A stretch of DNA of 20,804 bases, taken from the IMG/VR virus record IMGVR_UViG_3300044985_000020, positions 1 to 20,804 of that record; one strand, written 5' to 3'. Of this stretch, positions 553-20,804 are shown one piece after another. Position 1 is the first letter of the stretch. Each line of letters starts with the position of its first letter. The notes beneath the pieces were generated by a model. It was given only the letters and a program-made list of their open reading frames with translations. It was not told the DNA's origin and ran no database searches. This stretch comes from a virus. Both the position numbers and the translations under genes were made by a program.

Positions 553-568
553 CTACTTAGCGAAGTAG
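553..568 (-). terminator. Small hairpin over the RNA polymerase stop codon
   Basis: CTACTT (553-558) and AAGTAG (563-568) form a perfect 6-bp stem with a 4-base loop and include the stop codon of the polymerase gene. No T-run follows on the minus strand, so this is a weak terminator candidate at best. It could instead stabilise the mRNA 3' end. Confidence 0.25.
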
Positions 569-2514
569 TATGATGTACCAAGTGCTTCAATTAGCTCAGG
601 TACAGGTACATTGTTAATCTTAGTCATCTTACGTATGCTTCTACCATGTAAGTCTAAGAATTGATTCATTGGTATTACTTTAGCTTCTGGGTTAGTTACC
701 TTAGCTTGCATACCTTTGAAGAACAAATTAAGTATATCAGTACCAAGAGGCATATCCTCTGTCTTTATATTAGTACGTGAACCAAACAAGTCCATGTATG
801 CATTCTTAATAGCTTGCTCTAGTAAGTGCATTTCAGTCACATTGACTCGGAAACAATCATGTACTGCTATAATATGTTGAGCACCTAAACGTGATAAGTG
901 AACTATTATCAATCGTGCAATCAATGCATCAGTAGCTTGTATCATGTTAACGAATGCAGTACGTATGAAGTCACTAGTGTTAACCTCTAACGTATTAAGT
1001 GCTAACTTGATGAACTTGTAAGTGTACTCACCTGTTGTAACATATACATCAGGACATACCACATCATGCTCAATAGCTTGGTCTAGTATGTTATGTTTAA
1101 CTTTGTAGTTCATTTGTACTTTAGAACTGTCAGGCATCATATGACCTGTACGTCCTTCTATGTTAGCATCATTGTACTCAGCAATACGTTGACGTAGTGA
1201 TACCATCTTCTTACCAAATGACCTAGTTACTGCTTTATGGAAACGCTTAGCTATGTCATCAGATACTACACCATCTGGGTATAATACAGATATTACTTCA
1301 AACTGTTCATCCTTAGTTAGTTGCTTAACATCAGTAAATGCAGCCCAACCTTGACCATAGAACACACCCATGAATGACTTCTTAATGCCACCTCTAGTGA
1401 AGCCCATGAAGCCATCTTTCTCTAACTCTTCAATACAACGTTGATATGCATCTTGTAGTTTCTTAAGAGACATGCCACAAGCAGCAGCAATCTCTTCATC
1501 GCCTACCATCAAAGCACCCAACTGAGGCCCTGAACATTTAGCATCCAACCCAACAGCCATACCTATGTACGGACGATTACCTTTGTTAAGCTCTGACCAT
1601 ATCATAGCTGCCTTAGTAAATGACCAAGGCTTAGTAGCTAGTCTATCTTTCTTAGCTTTACCTAACTCTTCTATGATGAAGTCAATAGGATTATCTATTG
1701 CCTTTCTCATCAACTTACCAACTTGGTTCTCTGGAATACTGACCATATCCATTACTTCTGCCTTGATAACTCTCTTGACAGTAGGAACATCATAATCAGT
1801 AGTAACACCAGCTAAGTCCATAAGAGCACGACTTCTATCACTAGCTTGACCATTCGGCCCATGACATGATGCTAGGTAAGTACGTATACGTCTATCTGCT
1901 TTGAACTCACTAGTATATGCATTCTCTGCACTCATAGCATTACAACCAGCTAGTACATACGCTTCATCATCTTGTTCAGCGCCTCCCATGATAGTTTGTA
2001 CTCTATTAGCTATGTCAACCATTTGCTGACTGATAGTGTACTGGCTAGCCTCTTGAGCGTGTATTGCTTCTATTGCTAGCTTACCAAGTTGGCCTTTCTC
2101 TACTCCATAGTTAGGAAAGCGTCTAGTGAATGTAGTACCAACCTTGATAGGTGCATAAGCCTCAGTACGTTGCTCCATCATTTCTATCATGCGGTCGCCC
2201 ATAGTGCCATCTTCCTTGGCTAGTTGAGCTTCCATTAGGGCAAGATGTACATGCTCTTCTGGCAAAGTTATGTTATGTTCTGTTACCACTTTTGAGCCAT
2301 CACCAGATACACTTGTTTGTAACTTGGCAGTTGATAGTGAGTGCTTTACTAAGTCTACGAAAGCCTCTGGCATGTCTAAGTCACCGACTAGCTTAGTAGC
2401 ATCCACTACAGCACAAGCCAGTAGTACTGATACTCTAGCATTCTTTATTTGATGGAATAGGTGAGCAGCAACAGTTGATGATAGGGCATTAGTGTTCATT
2501 TGTGTAGTATCCAT
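553..2514 (-). CDS. T7-like single-subunit DNA-dependent RNA polymerase
   Basis: Phage RNA polymerase of the T7/mitochondrial family, which transcribes phage genes from its own promoters. Numbered from the start chosen here (653 aa), the family landmarks are present: a DRRIRTY segment (207-213, T7 equivalent DWRGRVY), motif A with catalytic Asp324 in LDAKCSGPQ, motif B RGGIKKSFMGVFYG with Arg374, Lys378, Tyr386 and Gly387 (T7 R627, K631, Y639, G640), and motif C VHDCF with His552-Asp553 (T7 H811-D812). The C-terminus ends aromatic, YYFAK, recalling the FAFA foot of T7. The protein is shorter than T7 RNAP (883 aa); most of the loss is before DRRIRTY, about 206 residues against about 420, so the promoter-binding N-terminal domain is reduced. 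I chose the Met at 2514 because AGGAG stands 7 bases upstream. An in-frame ATG at 2577 has a weaker site, and one at 2625 lies inside the preceding small ORF. Confidence 0.95.
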   Translation of the reverse strand: MDTTQMNTNALSSTVAAHLFHQIKNARVSVLLACAVVDATKLVGDLDMPEAFVDLVKHSLSTAKLQTSVSGDGSKVVTEHNITLPEEHVHLALMEAQLAKEDGTMGDRMIEMMEQRTEAYAPIKVGTTFTRRFPNYGVEKGQLGKLAIEAIHAQEASQYTISQQMVDIANRVQTIMGGAEQDDEAYVLAGCNAMSAENAYTSEFKADRRIRTYLASCHGPNGQASDRSRALMDLAGVTTDYDVPTVKRVIKAEVMDMVSIPENQVGKLMRKAIDNPIDFIIEELGKAKKDRLATKPWSFTKAAMIWSELNKGNRPYIGMAVGLDAKCSGPQLGALMVGDEEIAAACGMSLKKLQDAYQRCIEELEKDGFMGFTRGGIKKSFMGVFYGQGWAAFTDVKQLTKDEQFEVISVLYPDGVVSDDIAKRFHKAVTRSFGKKMVSLRQRIAEYNDANIEGRTGHMMPDSSKVQMNYKVKHNILDQAIEHDVVCPDVYVTTGEYTYKFIKLALNTLEVNTSDFIRTAFVNMIQATDALIARLIIVHLSRLGAQHIIAVHDCFRVNVTEMHLLEQAIKNAYMDLFGSRTNIKTEDMPLGTDILNLFFKGMQAKVTNPEAKVIPMNQFLDLHGRSIRKMTKINNVPVPELIEALGTSYYFAK

Positions 2515-2530
2515 GGTATTCTCCTGAGTA

Positions 2531-2562
2531 GTATTAGTAGTTGTATTAGTAGTTGTATTAGT
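2531..2562. repeat. 12-bp tandem repeat just before the RNA polymerase start
   Basis: The unit GTATTAGTAGTT (plus strand) occurs 2.7 times in a row. It lies between the alternative polymerase starts at 2577 and 2514. If translation began at 2577 it would add an Asn/Thr-only stretch; if at 2514, it is leader sequence. The unit length is a multiple of three, so copy-number change would keep the frame. Confidence 0.7.
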
Positions 2563-2605
2563 GTTTAAGTTATTCATGATAAGTTTCTCTTTAGTTAAGT
2601 TAGGT

Positions 2606-2764
2606 TTATGCTTCATAAAGTTCATTACAAACTTCTTTCAGGTGTTGAACGTAATCAGTGTCTTGGCAAGTCTCGCCATGCTTCTTGAGGTTGTTAAACA
2701 GACATTTGTGAATGAATGCTGCTTCTCTATCTGTGCATTGTACTTTACTTATAAGTTGAACCAT
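2606..2764 (-). CDS. Hypothetical protein, 52 aa, four cysteines
   Basis: A small ORF starting MVQLISKVQC and ending NELYEA, with AGGAG 7 bases before its ATG. It is soluble-looking and charged, with cysteines at 10, 21, 33 and 46. The spacing does not match a zinc-finger pattern I know, and I do not recognise the family. It follows the 26-aa membrane ORF by 15 bases and ends 91 bases before the chosen polymerase start, so it probably shares a transcript with both. Its good ribosome site, position in a leftward cassette, and overlap with the longest possible polymerase frame argue that the polymerase starts further downstream. Function unknown. Confidence 0.65.
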   Translation of the reverse strand: MVQLISKVQCTDREAAFIHKCLFNNLKKHGETCQDTDYVQHLKEVCNELYEA

Positions 2765-5221: not shown

Positions 5222-7627
5222 TTAATTTAATTCTATCCAGTTGCCCTCTACGAAATCAACAGCTAGTGCTGAATCACCTCCATCACGCTCTTCTAAGTTC
5301 GGGTTGTTAGAAAATCCGTCATTTATAGGATAGAAAGCTTCACCATTTATATCTATATCATACACCTGCATTTTACTATAAGTAGCACTTGTAGTATTTT
5401 CTCTTGTGCTGAAACTAGCCCCAAATGTACAAGCTCTTATACTTTTATTAGCTTTGACGACTAATCTTAAAGAATGCTCTAACCCATCACTAGGGCAAGG
5501 TGTTACACCTTGTTCAATAGGAAGTCCATCAAGATAGGCGGTTACAGTTTCATCGTTAAATCCAAAATTACCTAACTTATCTCCACTAGACCATATGAAA
5601 AAATAAGGTCTTCCATCATTGCCCGCTATATCACTATCTACGAAATAAACAACTTCAGAAGGGTCAGGTATAACTACCTTGAACTCAACATATCCACCTT
5701 CATTAATTTCCCTATATGGCACATAAATAGCATTACTTGTACCGTTTAGCATATATCTCCAATTAGTTTGACTAGGCACATTGCCCCAAACAGTAACATT
5801 GCCCAAATTCATTTGTACCATATGAAGTACCCCATTTTCGTCAGATAACATTACGCCAACAACATCTTTGCCATCTATTTGTAATTTGTTACTTCCAACA
5901 GGGTAAGGTGGTGGCGCAACATTCTGACCAAACAATGGTAAGAAAGCAGGTACATTTTCTATAGGAGTACCCTGTGCAAAGTTAGAGTAAGTAGTAGTTT
6001 CTCTTACATCCCAATATATTAAGTTTTGACTGAAAGATTCAGCTTGGCTAAAAGTTCTAGTCATATCTCTAACTGAACTTGTATCCCACATACCTATGTC
6101 TATATTGAAACTTTCGGCATTGTAGAAAGTATTATTCATACTTGTAACTTTACTTACATTCCAATTACTTAAATCTTGGTTGAAAGCCTTAGCATCAGCA
6201 AATGTTCTTTGTAAGTTCTTGTTTTCTCCAACTTCCCAACTGCTTATATCTTGGTTGAAATCTCTAGCACTTGCAAACATGAAAGATAGGTTTATTACTG
6301 AGGATGTATCCCAGTCCCTTATAACACCATTAAATCTAAAGCAACTGGCAAACAAGTTCTGCATATACTTAGCTGAACTAGTGTTCCAACTATTTAAGTC
6401 TTGATTAAACTCAAGACAGCCTGAAAACATATTACTAAAGTTTGTAATATTACTTACATCCCAAGAGTTAAAAGGTTGGTTGAGTACACTACATCTCTTA
6501 AACATATTAGTTAAGTCAGTTAAACTGTTACCTAAAACCCAGTTACTAATATCTTGATTGAACTTGTTACAATCTTCAAACATACCTGTAACGTTTATGG
6601 CATTAGTGATATTCCACTTATCTAAAGGCTGGTTAAACTCTTTACAATCTTCAAACATATCTTTAAAGTTTGTTGCATTATTAACATTCCAATCATTAAT
6701 GTTTTGATTAAAAGTATCTTGCACTCCTGCTGCCTTAAATAATCCAGAGAAGTCAGTTATTTCTGATACATCAGCATCAGTAACATCATCACCATTAGCT
6801 AGTTTTGCTATAAGCTCTTCTCTAGTTAAAGCTACACTAGGTAAAGGTAGAGGTGGTAAGTTCTGACCAAAGTAAGGGAAGTTGTCAGGGTTTTCACCTG
6901 CTGGGGTATACTTGAAAAAGTCAGCATATGCAGTTACTTTTCTAACATCCCAATACGCTAAGTTCTGGTCAAAGGCAGAATTATCTGGGTAAGAAGCATC
7001 AAAAGTATTTCCCATCATTTCAACGTTACTAGTGTTCCATCTACTAAGGTCTTGGTTAAATGAAGATGCACCTTCAAATGTTCCATTCAAGTTTGTTACT
7101 GAGCTAACATCCCAATCACCTACGTCTTGAGTAAAGCTGATTGCAGCATAAAATGTCCCATGCATTGCTTCTACAGAAGAAACATCCCAACCAGAAATAT
7201 CTTGGTTGAATTCTGAACATACCCAAAACATTCTTGCTATGTCTGTAACTTTACTCACATCCCATGTAGTAACATCACCATTAAAGTCACCACAATACAT
7301 AAACATACTATTCATAGTTAATGCACTGCTAGTATTCCAATCTGTGAAGTCATGGTTGTAACTATCACAACCTTTAAACATGTAATTAAAGTTTGTTACA
7401 TTACTTACATTCCAACTGTTAATACTGTAATTAAATGCCTTAGCGTAGTAAAACATATTTTCCATGTTTTCAGCACTGCTTACATTCCAACCACTAATAT
7501 CTTGATTGAAATCAGGCATGTTATAAAATAATCTACTGAAATCTGTTATTTCTGAAACATCTGCATTAGTTATATCTGCACCTTCTGCTATTAATGCATC
7601 AAGTTCTGCTCTGGTTAACGCTGCCAT
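5222..7627 (-). CDS. DUF285/BspA-type repeat adhesin (tail fibre or receptor-binding protein)
   Basis: An 801-aa protein with 18 copies of a roughly 25-residue repeat of the form FNQDISGWNVSSVTNMxxMF, the DUF285/BspA-like leucine-rich repeat known from surface proteins of mycoplasmas and other microbes. The copies fall into two blocks: residues 3-265 (8 copies) and 266-578 (10 copies). Each block opens with ALTR-EL...DADVSEITDFS and closes with a Phe-Gly-Gln-Asn, proline-rich segment. Residues 580-801 have a different, beta-rich pattern resembling a concanavalin/laminin-G-like domain, ending WIELN. No signal peptide or lipobox is present, as expected for a virion protein. The ATG directly abuts the previous gene's stop, with AAGGA upstream. 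Position between two fibres makes it a host-binding protein; the ligand is unknown. Confidence 0.85.
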   Translation of the reverse strand: MAALTRAELDALIAEGADITNADVSEITDFSRLFYNMPDFNQDISGWNVSSAENMENMFYYAKAFNYSINSWNVSNVTNFNYMFKGCDSYNHDFTDWNTSSALTMNSMFMYCGDFNGDVTTWDVSKVTDIARMFWVCSEFNQDISGWDVSSVEAMHGTFYAAISFTQDVGDWDVSSVTNLNGTFEGASSFNQDLSRWNTSNVEMMGNTFDASYPDNSAFDQNLAYWDVRKVTAYADFFKYTPAGENPDNFPYFGQNLPPLPLPSVALTREELIAKLANGDDVTDADVSEITDFSGLFKAAGVQDTFNQNINDWNVNNATNFKDMFEDCKEFNQPLDKWNITNAINVTGMFEDCNKFNQDISNWVLGNSLTDLTNMFKRCSVLNQPFNSWDVSNITNFSNMFSGCLEFNQDLNSWNTSSAKYMQNLFASCFRFNGVIRDWDTSSVINLSFMFASARDFNQDISSWEVGENKNLQRTFADAKAFNQDLSNWNVSKVTSMNNTFYNAESFNIDIGMWDTSSVRDMTRTFSQAESFSQNLIYWDVRETTTYSNFAQGTPIENVPAFLPLFGQNVAPPPYPVGSNKLQIDGKDVVGVMLSDENGVLHMVQMNLGNVTVWGNVPSQTNWRYMLNGTSNAIYVPYREINEGGYVEFKVVIPDPSEVVYFVDSDIAGNDGRPYFFIWSSGDKLGNFGFNDETVTAYLDGLPIEQGVTPCPSDGLEHSLRLVVKANKSIRACTFGASFSTRENTTSATYSKMQVYDIDINGEAFYPINDGFSNNPNLEERDGGDSALAVDFVEGNWIELN
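5894..6832 (-). repeat. Second DUF285 repeat block (10 units)
   Basis: Encodes residues 266-578 of the adhesin: an ALTREEL header, ten 24-32-residue units with a conserved FNQ...W pattern, and a proline-rich closing segment. It is homologous to the neighbouring block, pointing to duplication of the whole module followed by gain or loss of units. Confidence 0.85.
6833..7621 (-). repeat. First DUF285 repeat block (8 units)
   Basis: Encodes residues 3-265 of the adhesin: an ALTRAEL header, eight repeat units and a closing segment ending in FGQNLPPLPLPSV. The header and closing segments match those of the second block. Confidence 0.85.
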
Positions 7628-12395: not shown

Positions 12396-13160
12396 CTATA
12401 CTGGTATACCTGTTGGAGAAATTGGCCCAACTGGTGCAGTAGGTGAACCTATGTGATTATGTCCTTTAAGTGACTTACCACCGCCTATACAATCTGTTGT
12501 ACCTGTTACTGTCTTGCCACAATCAACATTGCCACTGACTTTCAAATCTCCTGACATTTCTACTAACGGTGTACTCATAACAACTTTAGTTTCTGCTATG
12601 ACCTCTACCTCTGGAGCAGTTACAGTTACTTTAGTTTCTGCAACAATATTAGCTTCATCACATTCTACATTAATAACTTTGTCAGTCTTGATATTTATAT
12701 CGCCACTCTCATCCAAAGATATTACTTGTGTCCTGTCTTCATTTCTAAGCTCTAGATTGTTTGCACTATACTCTTTTATAACTCTAGTAAGAGGATTAAA
12801 GCCTACAAAACAGAAACCATCATCCTCACTAAACTTACGTCTAAGGTGAGGTTTAGGTACAGCAGCCAATAAGCCAGCCGTATCTTTATCTTTGTAAAAC
12901 CAATGGTCATACCCTACTTGACTGAAACATATCATACAAGTATCTCCTGCCTTAACAGGTGTAGTCAAAGACCAACCTCCACCTTGAGGCATATGTACAG
13001 GTACTTCTTCTATTGGTTTTCTTCCTATTACTTTGTTAGTCTCGTCAGCATCCTGTATACACCTTTCAGCACAAATAAGAACATTGGCTGTACAGGTTTC
13101 AGGAAAGAATTCTACGATTCTAGCAGGGAACATAATAGAATACATTTCAGTGTTTATCAT
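12396..13160 (-). CDS. Baseplate central spike (gpV/gp138-like)
   Basis: A 254-aa cell-puncturing spike. Residues 1-100 resemble the OB-fold collar of gp138-type spikes (FPARIVEFFPETCTANVLIC, then PQGGGWSLTTPVKAGDTCMI). Residues about 108-230 are alternating short strands (INIKTDKVINVECDEANIVA and similar), the pattern of a trimeric beta-helix. The tip LKGHNHIG (231-238) carries the His-X-His that in P2 gpV-type spikes binds an iron ion at the apex. Conserved Gly-Pro-rich residues follow. No lysozyme domain is attached. Its ATG overlaps the stop of the preceding gene (TAATG), with GGGAG upstream. Confidence 0.88.
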   Translation of the reverse strand: MINTEMYSIMFPARIVEFFPETCTANVLICAERCIQDADETNKVIGRKPIEEVPVHMPQGGGWSLTTPVKAGDTCMICFSQVGYDHWFYKDKDTAGLLAAVPKPHLRRKFSEDDGFCFVGFNPLTRVIKEYSANNLELRNEDRTQVISLDESGDINIKTDKVINVECDEANIVAETKVTVTAPEVEVIAETKVVMSTPLVEMSGDLKVSGNVDCGKTVTGTTDCIGGGKSLKGHNHIGSPTAPVGPISPTGIPV

Positions 13161-14350
13161 TATATTAAATCTCCCAAGAAAGTGGTCTCATTAGTACCAC
13201 TAGATATTTTAGTAAGTGTAGTAGGAGCTAATCTATCTAGGCTACCAGTGATAGCTCCATCACCTAAAGAAGCAGCTTGACGTACTGCATCATCTATAGT
13301 AATTAAATCATTATCATTAAAGTCATCTGCATCAACTAAGGTAGGGTCAACTGCTCCTATAGCACCAGCTACACAACAGTCTACAGCAAGTCCAATAAGA
13401 AGTTCTCCAAACTCACTCCCACTAGTAAATCCAAAGTTATCCTCTATTGCACCATAAATAGATTCTGTCAACTCACCCATAGCAGTATTGATTGTATCTT
13501 CAACTAAGTCATTCACTAGTCCTTCTAGGCCATCTACTAAACAAGCAGAGGCAGTACTAGCTCCAGCTACTAAGTCTACACCACCTAATAACTCATTAGC
13601 TTCTTCTATCAATACACTAATCATGCTTAAACTATTGGCATCAGAACTTTCTACTACTTCTGTATCTGTTGTATGTACTGTGTAGTTATGCTTACCTGTT
13701 GCTGCATCGAAGCTTCTGAATTCATAAGTAACTTGTATAGGCTTACCATTAGTAGCAAAAGTATCTACTACAAAACTCTCGCCTATGTTAACTTTAGCTA
13801 CTGATATTTCTTGATAGTCTTTAACTATAATACTATTAGCTAAAAGTTTATCTACCTCAGCTTTTCTCTCTTCTGGTGAGATAGGTGTAAAGATAAGTGG
13901 TACAGGAGAAGTATCGTTATCTCCTTCACTTACTTGTACTTCCTCACCTAAGATAGTAAACATTAAAGCATCAGTCATGCCTTCTGCTTGCTTAGTTTTG
14001 ATTCTATTAAAGATTACTGGATTGTACGTACCTAAGTTGGTCAGTACCTCACATGGAATAGCTCTATTTACTAATGTCCTTAAAACATCAAACATCCATC
14101 TAGCATTGTTAGTGCTATATTGATAGTTTTCTAGGGCTGTTTCTATTACGGTATTAGTTACTATCCCACTTATAGTAATCTTTCTGTTTTTCTTTATTGC
14201 TGTATTACTTACTACAAAGCCAGCTTGTGTAGGAAACTGTGTAATACTAGTAGATGCTTCGTGTTCCTCAGAGATAACTGAGTGGAAGCGTAGTACAGAC
14301 TTCTGCCCATCTACATCAAAAGATATTTGAGCTTTGTCAGGTTTAGCCAT
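13160..14350 (-). CDS. Dit-like baseplate hub/adaptor protein
   Basis: A 396-aa protein. Residues 1-140 (SVISEEHEASTSITQFPTQA, KKNRKITISGIVTN, ARWMFDVLRTLVNRAIPCEV) resemble the Dit-like N-terminal domain found in myovirus hub or tube-end proteins that connect tube and baseplate. Residues about 165-235 form a second beta-rich part (ISVAKVNIGESFVVDTF...YTVHTTDTEVVE). Residues 240-396 are Ala/Gly/acid-rich with a hydrophobic stretch containing Cys-Cys (LLIGLAVDCCVAGAIGAV, near 317-334) whose role I do not recognise. The gene lies between the hub and spike genes, fitting an adaptor. The name rests on the N-terminal pattern and gene order; exact family uncertain. Confidence 0.7.
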   Translation of the reverse strand: MAKPDKAQISFDVDGQKSVLRFHSVISEEHEASTSITQFPTQAGFVVSNTAIKKNRKITISGIVTNTVIETALENYQYSTNNARWMFDVLRTLVNRAIPCEVLTNLGTYNPVIFNRIKTKQAEGMTDALMFTILGEEVQVSEGDNDTSPVPLIFTPISPEERKAEVDKLLANSIIVKDYQEISVAKVNIGESFVVDTFATNGKPIQVTYEFRSFDAATGKHNYTVHTTDTEVVESSDANSLSMISVLIEEANELLGGVDLVAGASTASACLVDGLEGLVNDLVEDTINTAMGELTESIYGAIEDNFGFTSGSEFGELLIGLAVDCCVAGAIGAVDPTLVDADDFNDNDLITIDDAVRQAASLGDGAITGSLDRLAPTTLTKISSGTNETTFLGDLI

Positions 14351-14358
14351 AATTTTTC

Positions 14359-15315
14359 CTAATTAAACCAATTGGTAGTAGGCATATCAGTTCCACCTGT
14401 AGGGTTTGAAGCAAACAAGTGAGTGCTCCATTCCTTAGTATAGTTAGAACCTTTATGCTGTACTGACAACACTTGGTAAGTGGCTGAACCAGCTACAGAA
14501 TCTTCTAGTAACTTGCTAGCTACTTGTAAAGCTTCTTCATCCACACTGGTTCCAGCAGTTAATAGTTTAGTTATATTTATAATACTACTAGGTCTTATCT
14601 TCTCATCTAGGTTAGAGTGGACTGCAATAGTAGCTGGCCCTAATTTAGGGTTGCCTCTCATGTTCCTAGTATCCAAAGTAATCTCACCAGTACTGGTTCT
14701 TAAATCAGTACCAGCAACATTCTTTGAATCAGGCTTGTAAGCTATTACAATATTATCTCCTTCTGTATAGAAGTTAAATCCATACTGAGTAGCTAATCTC
14801 TCAAGGCAAGTCATAGCTGAACCTGTATGCTTAGATATGTTCTTATCAGGTACATAGTTCAACACTTCATCAGGGAAAGTTTTATAAATAATCTTACCTG
14901 AGAAGTCAACCTCACCTAATATACTTTCTATAACTTTCTTAAGACTTGGTACAGTTACATAAATCTCTATAGGCTTTTGTAAGTACAACTTATAAATCTT
15001 AGAGTAGCAAAACATAGAGAAGACAGTATCAGGTACTTTCTTTTCTTCTAGTGCATTACTAATGTATAACTGGTTAGCTATTACAGTTGGCTCTTTATCA
15101 TGAAGAGAAGTACTTAATGTCACATACTTCTCACCAGAAGAAAGTCTACTCACTGTACTAGGTAATAGGTTATATATACTAAACTTAGCTCTAGAGAAAC
15201 CATTAATATGCCTTACGTCAAAATCTATCCGTAAGTCATTTGCTTCAAACACTTTATTACCTTTCTTGTCAGTAACTCTTAAATTAACATACTGACCGAA
15301 TTTCTTTAGTGCCAT
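14359..15315 (-). CDS. Baseplate hub protein (gp44/gp27-like)
   Basis: A 318-aa protein, beta-rich at the N-terminus (FGQYVNLRVTDKKGN, DLRIDFDVRHINGFSRAKFS, IYNL), typical of hub proteins that cap the tube and hold the spike. The centre has LKKVIESILGEVDFSG and a LERLATQYGFNFYTEGDNIV segment seen in gpD/gp44-like hubs. The C-terminus includes QVLSVQHKGSNYTKEWSTH, a conserved-looking end of hub proteins that report tail-tip geometry. It starts two bases after the tape measure stop, with GGAGG inside the last tape measure codons, so expression is likely coupled. The assignment is by pattern and position. Confidence 0.8.
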   Translation of the reverse strand: MALKKFGQYVNLRVTDKKGNKVFEANDLRIDFDVRHINGFSRAKFSIYNLLPSTVSRLSSGEKYVTLSTSLHDKEPTVIANQLYISNALEEKKVPDTVFSMFCYSKIYKLYLQKPIEIYVTVPSLKKVIESILGEVDFSGKIIYKTFPDEVLNYVPDKNISKHTGSAMTCLERLATQYGFNFYTEGDNIVIAYKPDSKNVAGTDLRTSTGEITLDTRNMRGNPKLGPATIAVHSNLDEKIRPSSIINITKLLTAGTSVDEEALQVASKLLEDSVAGSATYQVLSVQHKGSNYTKEWSTHLFASNPTGGTDMPTTNWFN

Positions 15316-15316
15316 G

Positions 15317-18300
15317 TTAGCCTCCTGTACCTATACCTGTCTCTTCATCAATGTTTAAGTCTCCATCAACATCAACTTCTGTTCTAATTAAATCAGGATT
15401 GACTTCAACATTAACATCAACATTAGTTGTCTTATTAGCTTCTGCTTTATCTATAGTAGAGGCTTTCATTTGCCCTATATCAGTTGGTGGTATTGCATCA
15501 TCAGGTGAGGTAGCCCACTCATATAATTCATTAAGTACACCTACACCAGCACCTATACCAGCACCTACAGCAGTACCCACAACAGGAACAACAGAACCTA
15601 TGGCAGCACCGCCAGCAGCAAACTCAGCTACATCTAATGCACTGTCTACAAAGCCTCCATCATCTTCTACATCACCTATATATCTAGCTCCAGCAGTTAC
15701 AGCAGTAGCAGCAATAGCAGGAGACATAACCTTGGCAGCATTTAATAAACCTTTACCCATGCTCGCAGAAGACTTGGCAGCAGTCACTAGACCACTTCCA
15801 GCTTTACTAGCATTGGCTTTTAGATTACTTAACATAGGAGAAGCTTTCTTACCAGCTAAGTAGGCAGCACCTACTCCAATAGCAGGAGCAGCTATATCAA
15901 CAGCCGCTACTGTAGCACCTAAGTTTTCTCCACCTACTACACCACCTATACCTTCTACTACATCAGCTTTGACATCACGGAAATCATGCATCAAGTCTTT
16001 AACAGCAGAATCTACTTTTCTCATTATAGGTTCATTTACATCACCACTTGCACTAGAAAGAGTCTCACCAGTAGCATCAGAAACAGTAAGTTCTGGTACA
16101 TTCAATATGTTAGCTACTTGTGCTCTATCTCTAGGGTTAAGCCCTTTCATTGCATCTTGAGCTTGAGCAATATAACTTTGAGCATCCATAGTATTACGAT
16201 TATCGTAGAAGCCAGTTAAGTCGATAGCTCTTACATTATCTGAACTTGATGCAGCAATAGCTGTCTGTACTCTAGCTGTTTCTTTAGCAGCAGTTATCTC
16301 GTTCTTATAAACAGATACTTGACTGCCAGCAGCTAAGATAGTTGAAGTAGCTCCTGATTTATCTAAACCAGATTCCATCAAGGCATCGCTTAAACCCCTT
16401 GCTTGGTTAGCTTCAATACCTGCTTTAGCTCCTAACTGTATCGCATCCATTTCTTCATTGACAGTAGCCATAGTTGCTTTAGCTAACTTCTGCAAAGTAC
16501 TTGAAGCAGACTTTACATTCTCAGAGAAGTTCTTTAATGACTCAGAGGCTTCTTCTAAATCTTCATTGTTTCCACCCTTGCTAGGTGGTGGCACCTTCCA
16601 ACCATCTTTAGGTATATGATTGAGTATTCTACCAGAACTTCCTTTTCTGCCGCCTCCATGAAAGTAGTCTGCTTTGGTATTATTTACCTTTACATCTTCT
16701 ACTTTGCCATCAGGTTTGGCATTACTTACTTCTTCTGTACTTCTAGAGTAAGGAGACTTGTTAGCATTACTTTCTCCACCTTTACCGCCACTAGGGTTGA
16801 AAGCTTTCATAGGTTCATCTTTGTCAACTACTTCTTTGAAAGCTTCTGTTTGTCCTTTTCTTTGATTCTTCTTACGCGGCTTTCTTGCACCCTTAACATC
16901 TTCTGCCAAAGCGAATACCCCTCTGTTGTCAAGACCAGCAGCAATCTCTTGAGCCTCCTGACCAGCAGCTAGAATTTCAGCTTGTAGTTCAGGGTTCTCT
17001 TCTACTAACTCGTAGAAAGATTCACCAGTGTATTTATTAAGAGCATAGAAGTGAGTTTGTTTCTCTCCTGTCTCCATCATTTGCATTTGCATTTGTACTT
17101 GAGTATCAGCAAGTGCAGTTTTCATGCCTTTACTATTAAAGTTTTTAATCTCTAATAAGCCAGCACTTTCACCAGTAACTTTGTCAAACAGTCTACCATC
17201 TGGTGAGGCTCCAAAACCTTTATGTTTAGACTCAAAGAAAGCTTCTTCAAAATTAAGATTCTTGCCTTCACCAGCTAAGAAGCTTGCAACAGCTTTATCT
17301 TCTGATTCATTACCTTCTCTGGTAAATGCGTTACCTCTAAAGGGTTCACCAGTACCTAGCCTTTCTCTAGCTAGCTCAACTGCCATGCGCTCTGAACCTC
17401 TGCCCATTGTTAAGGTCTTAGCTATAGAGCCAGTTATATTACCTTTACGTTGAGCAAGCCACTCAGGTGTACCCTGCTCAGGCATAGGTTCTTGAAGTAC
17501 TCTTAGTTGGTATTTTTCTTGGTCAGTAAGCTCTCTACTTCCAGATAGTTCTAATAAAGATTTTAGTTTACTACTTTGTTGACTTTCTAATGATTCATTT
17601 TCTAGGAACTTTTCTACAAACACTTGAGATTCTGACAACTCTTTAGCTCCATACATGCCACCCTTTTGAGAACCTTTGCCATGTTTAGCTATGGCTTCTT
17701 GGGTCATGGGAGTGGCTTCTGAACCGTCTAGGTTTAAGTCTAGTATAGCAGATTCATTACGAGCATTGTCTAGGTTACGTTGTTCTTCTTGGTTGGCATC
17801 AAAGCCACGTGAACGTCCTCTACCTTCTGTCTCATCCCTTAATGTAGGCATCTGCTCTCTAAGTACTTTAGCAGCAAACTCAGCTTTCTCTTGATACAAA
17901 CTCATCTTACGTGTTTGTTCAGCCTTAGCTTTAGCAAACCATTCAGCATTTTCAGGTGTACCAAAACCATAAGGCGATTTACCTATAGGAAATAAAGATT
18001 TAGTAAGGCTTGGCTTTTCATCCCAATACTCTTTAGACCTTTCATCTAGAGGAAGATTCTCATTAGTTAAAGCTACTTCGCTAAAACCAAACTGTAGTCT
18101 ATCTAAAGCTGTACTGCCTTTACCAGCCATAGTAGGTTTAATTCCAGTAATGCCTGTTTCATTAGGTAAAGGTAGCAAGGCTGAACTATGGGCACTCATA
18201 GTGCTATCCATAAACCTTTCAGTTATTGCTTCTTCTAAACCTAACTGTCTTGTACCATGTATAGAAGAACCTATTGTCTCTTCATGTACATATAAGGCAG

Positions 18301-18928
18301 CTAAATCTTTAACATTAGTAAGGGCTAGTTTTAAGTCTTCATCAGCTTGAAACTGTCTTTCTGGGTTCAAAGTATGCCCAGCTAACCTGCTACCAGCACC
18401 CTTATCCATGTACTCGCCAGAAGTATTTCCTAACATACTTATAACTGTGTTAATCTCAGTCTTGTCTCTAGGAAATTGAATACCTCTTGGGAAGTCCTCA
18501 CCTTTCATTTCTCTGGCAAAGTCTGCTCCCTTCATACCTGTGACATCTTCAAACTCTTCAATAGCAGCAGCTATCTTTAAAGGGTCTACACCTTTAGGCT
18601 TGAACTTGCCAGACAGTAATCCACGAATACCAGATTGAATAGTAGGTGACATATGAGACAAACGACCAAGTTGCAAATCTCTTGCAGTCATCATGCCTTC
18701 TTGTTCTTGATTAACTCTGCCTACTACTTCTTCTCTTAAGTCATGGAAGGCATTTTCCATATTGGATAAAGTGCCATATTCTTCTAGTAAGGATTCTTCT
18801 GGTGATAACCCACCATACTCTTTTCCAAACTCTTCTGAACCCATAATTGTTAGACCAGACAACTCTTCATTATCATTATCACCATAGATGTCTCCATCTA
18901 AGTCGTCATCTAAGTAGTTACTAGACAT
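15317..18928 (-). CDS. Tape measure protein with embedded YqaJ-type nuclease domain
   Basis: A 1203-aa protein in the tape measure position, directly after the tail assembly chaperone and before the hub. It is highly acidic at the start (residues 6-22). Residues about 482-640 form a YqaJ/lambda-exonuclease-like domain: GTPEWLAQRKGNITGS (486-501), Gly539 with Glu543, SPDG with Asp577, LLEIKN with Glu593 and Lys595, and QVQMQM with Gln610/Gln612. These match the catalytic set of lambda exonuclease (E85, D119, E129, K131, Q157). A Lys/Arg-rich linker follows (682-692). The helical C-terminal half ends in two Ala/Gly-rich hydrophobic segments (about 1002-1026 and 1102-1132), as in tape measure proteins that enter the host membrane. 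The ATG is preceded by AGGAGGT. Tape measure identity is from length, position and C-terminus. Confidence 0.85.
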   Translation of the reverse strand: MSSNYLDDDLDGDIYGDNDNEELSGLTIMGSEEFGKEYGGLSPEESLLEEYGTLSNMENAFHDLREEVVGRVNQEQEGMMTARDLQLGRLSHMSPTIQSGIRGLLSGKFKPKGVDPLKIAAAIEEFEDVTGMKGADFAREMKGEDFPRGIQFPRDKTEINTVISMLGNTSGEYMDKGAGSRLAGHTLNPERQFQADEDLKLALTNVKDLAALYVHEETIGSSIHGTRQLGLEEAITERFMDSTMSAHSSALLPLPNETGITGIKPTMAGKGSTALDRLQFGFSEVALTNENLPLDERSKEYWDEKPSLTKSLFPIGKSPYGFGTPENAEWFAKAKAEQTRKMSLYQEKAEFAAKVLREQMPTLRDETEGRGRSRGFDANQEEQRNLDNARNESAILDLNLDGSEATPMTQEAIAKHGKGSQKGGMYGAKELSESQVFVEKFLENESLESQQSSKLKSLLELSGSRELTDQEKYQLRVLQEPMPEQGTPEWLAQRKGNITGSIAKTLTMGRGSERMAVELARERLGTGEPFRGNAFTREGNESEDKAVASFLAGEGKNLNFEEAFFESKHKGFGASPDGRLFDKVTGESAGLLEIKNFNSKGMKTALADTQVQMQMQMMETGEKQTHFYALNKYTGESFYELVEENPELQAEILAAGQEAQEIAAGLDNRGVFALAEDVKGARKPRKKNQRKGQTEAFKEVVDKDEPMKAFNPSGGKGGESNANKSPYSRSTEEVSNAKPDGKVEDVKVNNTKADYFHGGGRKGSSGRILNHIPKDGWKVPPPSKGGNNEDLEEASESLKNFSENVKSASSTLQKLAKATMATVNEEMDAIQLGAKAGIEANQARGLSDALMESGLDKSGATSTILAAGSQVSVYKNEITAAKETARVQTAIAASSSDNVRAIDLTGFYDNRNTMDAQSYIAQAQDAMKGLNPRDRAQVANILNVPELTVSDATGETLSSASGDVNEPIMRKVDSAVKDLMHDFRDVKADVVEGIGGVVGGENLGATVAAVDIAAPAIGVGAAYLAGKKASPMLSNLKANASKAGSGLVTAAKSSASMGKGLLNAAKVMSPAIAATAVTAGARYIGDVEDDGGFVDSALDVAEFAAGGAAIGSVVPVVGTAVGAGIGAGVGVLNELYEWATSPDDAIPPTDIGQMKASTIDKAEANKTTNVDVNVEVNPDLIRTEVDVDGDLNIDEETGIGTGG
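17009..17485 (-). other. YqaJ/lambda-exonuclease-like nuclease domain within the tape measure gene
   Basis: This segment encodes residues 482-640. The order of motifs is W-R-G-GS, Gly-x3-Glu, Ser-Pro-Asp-Gly, Leu-Leu-Glu-Ile-Lys, and Gln-Val-Gln-x-Gln-Met. That is the full order of YqaJ viral recombinase nucleases, with the PD-(D/E)XK residues Asp577, Glu593 and Lys595 all present. The domain is flanked by low-complexity linkers, consistent with an inserted module. Confidence 0.85.
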
Positions 18929-18937
18929 AGCTACCTC

Positions 18938-19506
18938 CTATTTCATATGTTGTTTAATTTCAATTATCTGGTGCATCATTTCTAAATCATAGATAGTATA
19001 TGTACCGTCTTTTAATTCTTTCAAAGAACACATAGGCGGATTTACTAGCAAAGGTCTGATAAAGTACCCATTAAGTTCAGGGTATATTGAACTATAATCT
19101 ACAGGTAACTTGTCAGCCTCCCCTCTGGCTATTTGTCGGGGGAGGGTTCCTTTGCTAAGCCTAAGGCGAAAAAAGAAGAGTACTGAGCATGTATTACATG
19201 AGTAAACAATTCTGCTATCTCACCTAAGTTGCTTTCAAACATACTATCTATAGTATCTTCTGTAATCTTCTTACCATCAATACGTACCTGACATACAAAA
19301 TGTTTGATTAGCTGTGCTACGATTGCTGGCTCTTTAGCATCCATAATAGCTACAATAGTAGAAGCTAAATTTAGTTCTGCTATGTTTATTATATTCTCTG
19401 AGCCTAAGTACTTACCTGCCTTAGTTAGGTTTTCTAAAGCTACACCAACATCCCATGAAGGTATAAATATTTCTTTACCACTTTTAATTGTTGCATTATA
19501 TGACAT
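18938..19506 (-). CDS. Tail assembly chaperone frameshift product (about 189 aa)
   Basis: If ribosomes slip back one base at TTTTTTC (19174-19168), reading passes the 125-aa stop and stays open to a TAG at 18938, ten bases before the tape measure ATG. This adds 76 residues (RLRLSKGTLPRQIA, through EADKLPVDYSSIYPEL, to EIKQHMK) after residue 113. The extension has no start codon with a ribosome site. A pair of chaperones, short and frameshift-extended, encoded just before the tape measure gene is a classic feature (lambda G/GT, P2 E/E'). The long form would recruit tail tube protein to the tape measure. Confidence 0.75.
19117..19174 (-). promoter_or_regulatory. Programmed -1 frameshift site with downstream hairpin
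   Basis: T TTT TTC (19174-19168) is in the correct phase for a canonical -1 slippery heptamer (codons 112-113, Phe-Phe). A second possible slip site, five C (19142-19138), lies further on. A GC-rich stem CCTCCCC/GGGGAGG (19145-19139 with 19123-19117, loop 15) follows and encloses the 0-frame stop. Its 22-base spacing from the heptamer is longer than usual. A GC-rich island in an AT-rich genome supports selection for structure. Confidence 0.7.
19129..19506 (-). CDS. Tail assembly chaperone, short form
   Basis: A 125-aa mainly helical protein (SWDVGVALENLTKAGKYLGS, then AELNLASTIVAIM, AIVAQLIKHFVCQV) lying between tail tube and tape measure genes, where contractile-tail phages encode their tail assembly chaperone. 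AGGAG is placed 7 bases before the ATG. The last codons include a canonical slippery heptamer and a hairpin, and the -1 frame continues to the tape measure gene, giving a longer second product. Chaperones of this type coat the tape measure until tube subunits assemble. The call rests on position, size and the frameshift arrangement rather than on a recognised family motif. Confidence 0.8.
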   Translation of the reverse strand: MSYNATIKSGKEIFIPSWDVGVALENLTKAGKYLGSENIINIAELNLASTIVAIMDAKEPAIVAQLIKHFVCQVRIDGKKITEDTIDSMFESNLGEIAELFTHVIHAQYSSFFALGLAKEPSPDK

Positions 19507-19571: not shown

Positions 19572-20069
19572 TTATTGGATTGATTCACCAATATCTTGGT
19601 TATCATTACCAAACTTACGTTCGAACTCAACCTTTTCAAAAGTAAGTACCCATGTAACTGTGTTCATAGTTTGACCACGCGCCATAGCTGGCATAGCTAA
19701 GATAACACCATTTGTCATGGTACATTCATCTTTGCCCATATTATCTTTTAACTTGGCTTGGATAGGCTTAACTAAAGCCCCATCTGCTTCTGCTAAAGAT
19801 TGGAAGTAGTTGGCGTAATCTTGTAGATACTTGTTTTCTTCCGAGTTCATTAGTACTGGGAAAGTTAAATCACCAGCTACTATACGTTGCATGCTTACGA
19901 CCATATCCCCATAAGCACCGAACTGTGTCGTTGCAATAGGTGCTCTACGCATAATGTTAATTAAGTTTTCACCAGTAGAGAAACCTCGTACTGATAATTT
20001 CTTAACACTGCCAGAAGCAGATGGAATCTCTAGGATTAAATCTACATTAGCAAAACTATATTGATACAT
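19572..20069 (-). CDS. Tail tube protein (DUF3277-like)
   Basis: A 165-aa protein (MYQYSFANVDLILEIPSASG; ENLINIMRRAPIATTQFGAYGD; GDLTFPVLMNSEENKYLQDY; VTWVLTFEKVEFERKFGN) fitting tail tube proteins of the Mu-like/DUF3277 type. These stack as hexameric rings to form the inner tail channel. It lies directly after the sheath gene by 10 bases with AAGGA before its ATG, and before a strong terminator, the usual arrangement. The family name is from recalled pattern; the tube role is well supported by length and position. Confidence 0.82.
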   Translation of the reverse strand: MYQYSFANVDLILEIPSASGSVKKLSVRGFSTGENLINIMRRAPIATTQFGAYGDMVVSMQRIVAGDLTFPVLMNSEENKYLQDYANYFQSLAEADGALVKPIQAKLKDNMGKDECTMTNGVILAMPAMARGQTMNTVTWVLTFEKVEFERKFGNDNQDIGESIQ

Positions 20070-20079
20070 TTTTTATTCC

Positions 20080-20804
20080 TTATTCTGAGAATGAGCCTAC
20101 TACAGCTACTTCATGTAAAGCTCCAGAGCCTGCTACTTCAAAAGTCATTCCTGAATAGATACGGTTACCCTTATCACCAGCAGAAACTTCTGCGATTGAA
20201 GGAGCATTGATTCGGAACCCACGTGGTAAGAAAGTGCCATCAGGTAAGTAACCTGCACTTGCTAAGCCATTAGTTACCGCTGCTTGTAAAGACCTGTCTA
20301 ATGTAGCTTCTACAATGTTAATGCCTGTCTGGTTGAAAGGAACCTTGTCAGGTGACTGGTACAACGCATTAAATAAGTCTACTTCGCAACGATTCTCTAG
20401 CCACAATACACCATGAGTAGTATCTAACCAAGTGCCAGAAGACATACGAGAGTCGGTGAAAGCATTAACAGAGTTAACACCAGAACCTATCTTAACAACA
20501 GCATTAGCATTCTTAGCACGTAGATGCGCCAACTCGTTTGGAGATAAATCTTCTGCGGTTACGTTTGCTAACTGTTTAAGGTTTAGTGTAATAGTAGTTC
20601 CAACTCCATTGAAGTTGACACTTGCAGCACGTCCCCAAGCAGCAGAACTAGGATACTCATTAGTTGTTTTAGAGTAACAAGTCATTGCAAAGCTAGAAGT
20701 AATATCTTTAACCTTAAAGGCTACATTGTTCTCACTACTTGTAATAGTCGAAATATCGTTTGTAGTATTAACAAACACTTTCTTGAAGCCTGTAGCTGAT
20801 TGAG
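20080..20804 (-). CDS. Tail sheath protein, C-terminal part (DUF3383-like), cut by window edge
   Basis: About 241 C-terminal residues of a contractile tail sheath. The reading frame continues past the window end, so the Val codon at 20776-20778 is internal and not a start. Residues near the end (KVPFNQTGINIVEATLDRSL, AVTNGLASAGYLPDG, GFRINAPSIAE, NRIYSGMTFEVAGSGALHEV) follow the pattern of DUF3383 sheath proteins, whose C-terminal domain forms the conserved sheath core. Contraction of the sheath drives the tube through the host envelope. The tube gene follows after 10 bases. Confidence 0.88.
   Translation of the reverse strand, partial: QSATGFKKVFVNTTNDISTITSSENNVAFKVKDITSSFAMTCYSKTTNEYPSSAAWGRAASVNFNGVGTTITLNLKQLANVTAEDLSPNELAHLRAKNANAVVKIGSGVNSVNAFTDSRMSSGTWLDTTHGVLWLENRCEVDLFNALYQSPDKVPFNQTGINIVEATLDRSLQAAVTNGLASAGYLPDGTFLPRGFRINAPSIAEVSAGDKGNRIYSGMTFEVAGSGALHEVAVVGSFSE

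Follow-up and report, generated by a model that had tools for sequence, protein, structure and literature searches.

A complete nuclease domain of the YqaJ/lambda-exonuclease type sits within a protein in the tape-measure slot of the contractile-tail module described here, with database matches far beyond chance. The window, by which we mean the whole stretch of 20,804 nucleotides that was analysed (IMG/VR record IMGVR_UViG_3300044985_000020), is 20.8 kb long and is possibly a fragment of a phage genome. The open reading frame list of the window gives 1203 residues for the protein, and the nuclease occupies exactly residues 482-640 (Table 1).

Sequence, fold and active site of the nuclease domain

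Comparison of the protein with Pfam revealed a match of residues 489-621 to the YqaJ family (PF09588), which spans almost the whole profile (positions 1-148 of 150) with an E-value of 1.5e-10 and a score of 41.9 bits, above the curated cut-off of 22 bits. The PHROGs collection yielded a RecE-like exonuclease at 6e-18 and phrog_149, annotated as exonuclease, at 8e-15. Against the PDB, the single protein matched LHK-Exo at 7.6e-6, and a family profile matched LHK-Exo at 8e-31 and lambda exonuclease at 7e-14. Among proteins of solved structure, LHK-Exo and mimivirus R354 are closest in sequence; the latter is called Cas4-like in its PDB entry. The AlphaFold2 model of the domain has a mean pLDDT of 85.4 and a pTM of 0.83. 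Superposition of the model against LHK-Exo (3syy) gave a Z-score of 18.2 and an rmsd of 3.3 over 177 residues with 27% sequence identity, and against lambda exonuclease (1avq, 3slp) a Z-score of 17.5-18 with 20% identity. The model thus displays the PD-(D/E)XK fold of lambda exonuclease, and it shares the catalytic residues of both enzymes. The original prediction of a YqaJ/lambda-exonuclease domain at residues 482-640 is therefore borne out by profile, sequence and structure matches alike. A model of residues 1-485 from three sequences reached a pLDDT of only 44, which is unusable, and this region was left out of the fold searches.

The minus strand of the window encodes a contractile-tail module comprising sheath, tube, tail assembly chaperone, the 1203-residue protein, hub, Dit-like protein, spike, wedge, J-type baseplate genes and fibres. 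As a long single gene between the chaperone and the hub and Dit-like genes, the 1203-residue frame lies in the tape-measure slot, and gene order upstream and downstream agrees with the tape-measure assignment made in the original prediction. No Pfam tape-measure profile matched the protein, and its relative on IMG/VR contig L007 matched phrog_1533 only weakly (E 0.012). Residues 163-440 of the window-type tape measures match no known family. The short frame that overlaps the end of the chaperone gene probably represents a putative frameshift extension of the chaperone, as occurs upstream of many tape measures. In the fibre slot, an 801-residue protein (5222-7627, minus strand) consists largely of DUF285 (BspA-like) repeats, found in six stretches with an E-value of 3.7e-153.

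Table 1. Features of the tape-measure region and related genes in the window
Feature	Position	Strand	Evidence or remark
Tail sheath, running off the window	20080..20802	-	phrog_205 6.7e-59; 48% identity with the VPs20 (Chaseviridae) sheath
Tail tube, KPP10 ORF10 type	19572..20069	-	Pfam 1.3e-7, phrog_280 1e-21; "tube" from gene order and Chaseviridae annotation
Tail assembly chaperone	19129..19506	-	Pfam Phage_TAC_15 4.1e-10
Open frame of 66 codons, overlapping the chaperone end and reaching nearly to the tape-measure start	18938..19138	-	Three-frame translation
Tape-measure-slot protein with nuclease, 1203 aa	15317..18928	-	Open reading frame; slot after tail assembly chaperone and before hub/Dit-like genes; full-length relatives
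Conserved N-terminal region of tape measure, residues 163-440	17609..18442	-	~35% identity in L007
YqaJ/lambda-exonuclease domain, residues 482-640	17009..17485	-	Pfam, AlphaFold2 model, structure matches
Pfam YqaJ match within the domain	17066..17464	-	Residues 489-621
Arg494 codon, first motif W-x3-R	17447..17449	-	Invariant in 20 tape-measure domains
Glu543 codon, catalytic motif	17300..17302	-	Invariant
Asp577 codon, catalytic motif SPDG	17198..17200	-	Invariant
Glu593-Ile-Lys595 codons, catalytic E-x-K motif	17144..17152	-	Glu and Lys invariant
Gln612-Met-Gln614 codons, last motif	17087..17095	-	Both Gln invariant
Hydrophobic segment 1, residues 1007-1025, candidate membrane segment	15854..15910	-	Kyte-Doolittle scan
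Hydrophobic segment 2, residues 1113-1131	15536..15592	-	Kyte-Doolittle scan
Baseplate hub	14359..15315	-	phrog_196 9e-22
Dit-like tail protein	13160..14350	-	Pfam Dit_like 6.8e-18
T7-type single-subunit RNA polymerase, a Chaseviridae trait	553..2625	-	Pfam RNA_pol PF00940 2.8e-6

Alignment of the window domain with those of 19 IMG/VR relatives, many of them only 20-28% identical to it, revealed ten invariant columns: Trp490, Arg494, Gly539, Glu543, Asp577, Glu593, Lys595, Gln612, Gln614 and Met617. These include the motif set of lambda-type exonucleases, with the catalytic Glu, Asp, Glu-x-Lys and Gln in the expected order in 20 of 20 tape-measure domains. The catalytic residues are all retained in the 15 intact proteins compared (15/15), and the set is invariant across three divergent groups. 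All residues named originally, Glu543, Asp577, Glu593, Lys595, Gln610 and Gln612, are present. Gln610 is not a conserved glutamine, being Met in the nearest relative; the conserved ones are Gln612 and Gln614. Trp490 and Arg494, which were missing from the original list, are invariant as well. The 20 aligned domains differ too much from one another to allow a pattern scan. Compared with its counterpart in L002, the nearest relative of the window, the domain shows dN 0.047 and dS 0.41, and the rest of the protein dN 0.19 and dS 0.80. As the key residues are invariant down to 20% identity, the nuclease site is very probably functional.

Distribution among the Chaseviridae and origin of the domain

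The whole 1203-residue protein was found in three IMG/VR contigs (L002-L004) at 76% identity, rising to 90% within the nuclease domain, and the fourth contig (L007) showed 36% identity across residues 163-666. Kinship of the window with the Chaseviridae, lytic myophages with a T7-type RNA polymerase (PMC12842549), is indicated by the sheath (48% identical) and baseplate J (about 34% identical), together with a single-subunit RNA polymerase and a homologous contractile-tail module in Chaseviridae gene order. Every Chaseviridae tape-measure slot that we examined encodes one YqaJ domain. Among the Cleopatravirinae these are the slots of Mangalitsa (1.1e-12), 4HA13 (7.4e-10), GJ1, PP101, Y2, Myduc and MLP1, and among the Nefertitivirinae and relatives those of VPs20, pAh6-C, PVN03, SppYZU05, ZPAH14 and PAGF2. 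Felix O1 and KPP10, with a similar tail-gene layout, have tape measures that carry a TMP_3 domain and no YqaJ. A profile search of the genome contigs with the window-clade profile found no relative.

Similar to the window protein, the Chaseviridae tape measures (phrog_149 "exonuclease" and phrog_19855 "virion structural protein"; for example Mangalitsa gp68, 4HA13 AC4HA13_0067, VPs20 gp24 and ZPAH14 gp34) are about 1200 residues long, lie in the same slot and contain one YqaJ domain, which keeps the invariant residues. Profile comparison over residues 163-680 revealed the nuclease region as the part common to both, whereas the N-terminal region diverges between groups beyond profile alignment and that of the window is unrelated at the profile level. 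The Cleopatravirinae tape measures also carry an SLT transglycosylase, which was undetectable in the tape measures of the window and of VPs20. Therefore, the nuclease is the more constant enzyme of the two, found in every member examined, whereas SLT occurs only in Cleopatravirinae.

Several irregularities were observed among these genes. In pAh6-C (L009:4608-7741) and Spp001 (L044:4877-8569) the tape-measure gene is frameshifted inside or just past the nuclease domain; a programmed frameshift was rejected because the gene is intact in other Chaseviridae, and both are treated as isolated frameshifts or sequencing errors. The nuclease domains of phiEcoM-GJ1 (L015) and MLP1 (L019) are almost identical, with whole tape measures 73% and 60% identical to that of Mangalitsa, which suggests, from these alignments, that the nuclease segment may have been exchanged recently between such phages. 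The recombinase label of the VPs20 gene at L008:1619-3514 looks wrong, as the gene matches PF02867, the barrel domain of ribonucleotide reductase, at 1e-8.

In a tree of the tape-measure domains with ten stand-alone exonucleases, the former fell into three well-supported groups that do not unite. A single origin was marginally rejected (AU p 0.046), and with the long branches of this tree both single and repeated capture are compatible. Several of the stand-alone YqaJ relatives adjoin Erf or RecT genes, unlike the tape-measure form. LHK-Exo and lambda exonuclease likewise stand alone, commonly beside a single-stranded DNA-annealing protein, whereas the window domain is found inside a virion tape measure.

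Location in the virion and possible role at genome entry

In the Figure 7 legend of the 4HA13 virion LC-MS/MS study (PMC9699118), the tail tape measure protein takes second place, following the major capsid protein. The expected presence of the protein in the particle is thereby upheld, as far as that legend goes, for a relative with a YqaJ-bearing tape measure; the published proteome covers 4HA13 and not the window's own phage. Contracted Mu particles have lost both the tape measure and the DNA (PMC11915804), and during injection the inner-membrane protein ManZ labels the tape measure of lambda (PMC13190303). In Thermus phage P23-45, the tape measure bears a virion RNA polymerase that is presumed to work on the DNA as it enters (PMC10770324). 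By analogy with these good precedents, we infer that the nuclease is delivered into the cell with the tape measure. Three folded copies of the domain would hardly fit the lumen of the tail tube, so that the domain must be unfolded, staggered or located at the neck.

A free duplex end is the loading site of lambda-type exonucleases, which then degrade the 5' strand, and RecBCD loads poorly on long 3' tails. Chaseviridae genomes are 52-56 kb in length. They are linear, and direct repeats of about 3 kb lie at their termini (PMC12842549). We propose, at a probability of roughly 0.4, that the tape-measure nuclease acts on the ends of the phage's own linear genome during their passage through the tape-measure channel and resects their 5' strands. 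A nuclease of this type, packed in the tail, would exit together with the tape measure, immediately before the genome, and would meet both ends of the linear DNA in the channel. Digestion of the 5' strands would produce 3' single-stranded tails, which would impede RecBCD and other host enzymes that degrade DNA ends, and the exposed repeats could anneal, resulting in circularisation or concatemer formation. In this proposal we infer the enzyme activity, the ejection of the domain, its substrate and its purpose. The free ends at the entry site are those of the phage genome, and in tails of phage 80alpha the N-termini of the tape measure adjoin the end of the DNA (PMC11661146). In favour of end resection, a search of 50 of 4HA13's 52.4 kb found no YqaJ domain besides that of the tape measure. 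Against it, the FEN-type 5'-3' exonuclease also encoded by 4HA13 could process the ends after expression, and no single-stranded DNA-annealing partner was found among the 4HA13 proteins scanned, which are part of the proteome. In addition, an unregulated processive exonuclease would be dangerous to the phage's own DNA, and the narrow tail lumen makes packing of the folded domain unlikely.

Lambda exonuclease consists of three subunits. It is described as a toroid in the title of PDB entry 1avq. As for the tape measure, it forms a trimer in Mu, and the model for 80alpha contains three copies. By analogy, this shared threefold symmetry suggests that a ring might form at the pore. With three tape-measure copies, three nuclease domains would arrive at the entry pore, assemble round the incoming DNA in the manner of lambda exonuclease and resect its ends during injection. 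We regard this more specific arrangement as rather unlikely.

An equally unlikely alternative places the nuclease at head-tail joining, where it would trim or hold the DNA end protruding from the head into the upper tail. By way of the completion protein, the tape-measure N-termini in 80alpha tails are indeed brought close to the end of the DNA (PMC11661146), and within its protein the nuclease is N-terminal or central; it starts, however, about 390-690 residues from the N-terminus rather than at the very end, and the genome ends have already been made by terminase.

Two intracellular roles are less probable. An injected anti-host nuclease would enter the cytoplasm and degrade the host chromosome, plasmids or competing phage DNA from breaks made by others. 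The conserved active site and the likely entry with the tape measure agree with such a role, but intact circular host DNA offers no free duplex end to an enzyme class that starts there, and few tape-measure copies enter per particle. Of the three roles raised in the original prediction, attack on intact host DNA suits the enzyme class least, since a lambda-type exonuclease requires a free duplex end, and processing of the phage's own genome ends suits it best. It is about as doubtful that part of the protein is released or used late in infection for replication or recombination in the manner of a stand-alone YqaJ exonuclease. Tape-measure genes are late structural genes, which argues against this use, as do the replicative exonuclease that 4HA13 has of its own and, judging from the figure legend, the abundance of the tape-measure protein in 4HA13 virions (PMC9699118). 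The domain's relatives are nevertheless stand-alone recombination exonucleases, and tape measures are often seen fragmented, according to the 80alpha study (PMC11661146).

A DNA-end clamp or structural spacer with unused nuclease activity is very improbable: tape measures tolerate inserted domains and the activity here is predicted, but no catalytic residue varies even at 20% identity, whereas the N-terminal regions of the different groups have drifted too far apart for their profiles to align.

Relation to known systems and significance

The original prediction considered a DNA nuclease in a tape measure unusual. This view is not supported within the Chaseviridae, where every tape-measure gene examined has one and where the domain is already catalogued, in phrog_149 and in RefSeq entry YP_010656754 (ZPAH14 gp34, "exonuclease" with a "yqaJ" feature). 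The tape-measure nuclease is thus real, conserved and ordinary in this family. Among the open-licence literature we found no paper that discusses a nuclease in a tape measure, which is weak evidence of novelty, and one published precedent for a DNA-acting enzyme fused to a tape measure, the P23-45 polymerase (PMC10770324). The activity of that polymerase has been shown, whereas the window enzyme is a nuclease predicted from sequence and model. The SLT-bearing tape measures of Mangalitsa and 4HA13 likewise carry an enzyme domain; the substrate of SLT is the cell wall, that of the nuclease DNA.

Before a virion RNA polymerase turned up in a tape measure (2024), most enzymes carried by such proteins were assumed to be cell-wall hydrolases. 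A nuclease conserved across a whole cultured phage family implies a tail protein that processes DNA, probably at entry, and as Chaseviridae can be cultured, its role is directly testable. The finding would bear on how linear phage genomes survive host end-degrading enzymes in the first moments of infection. If the nuclease domains do form a ring at the pore, end protection and circularisation would be built into the tail itself.
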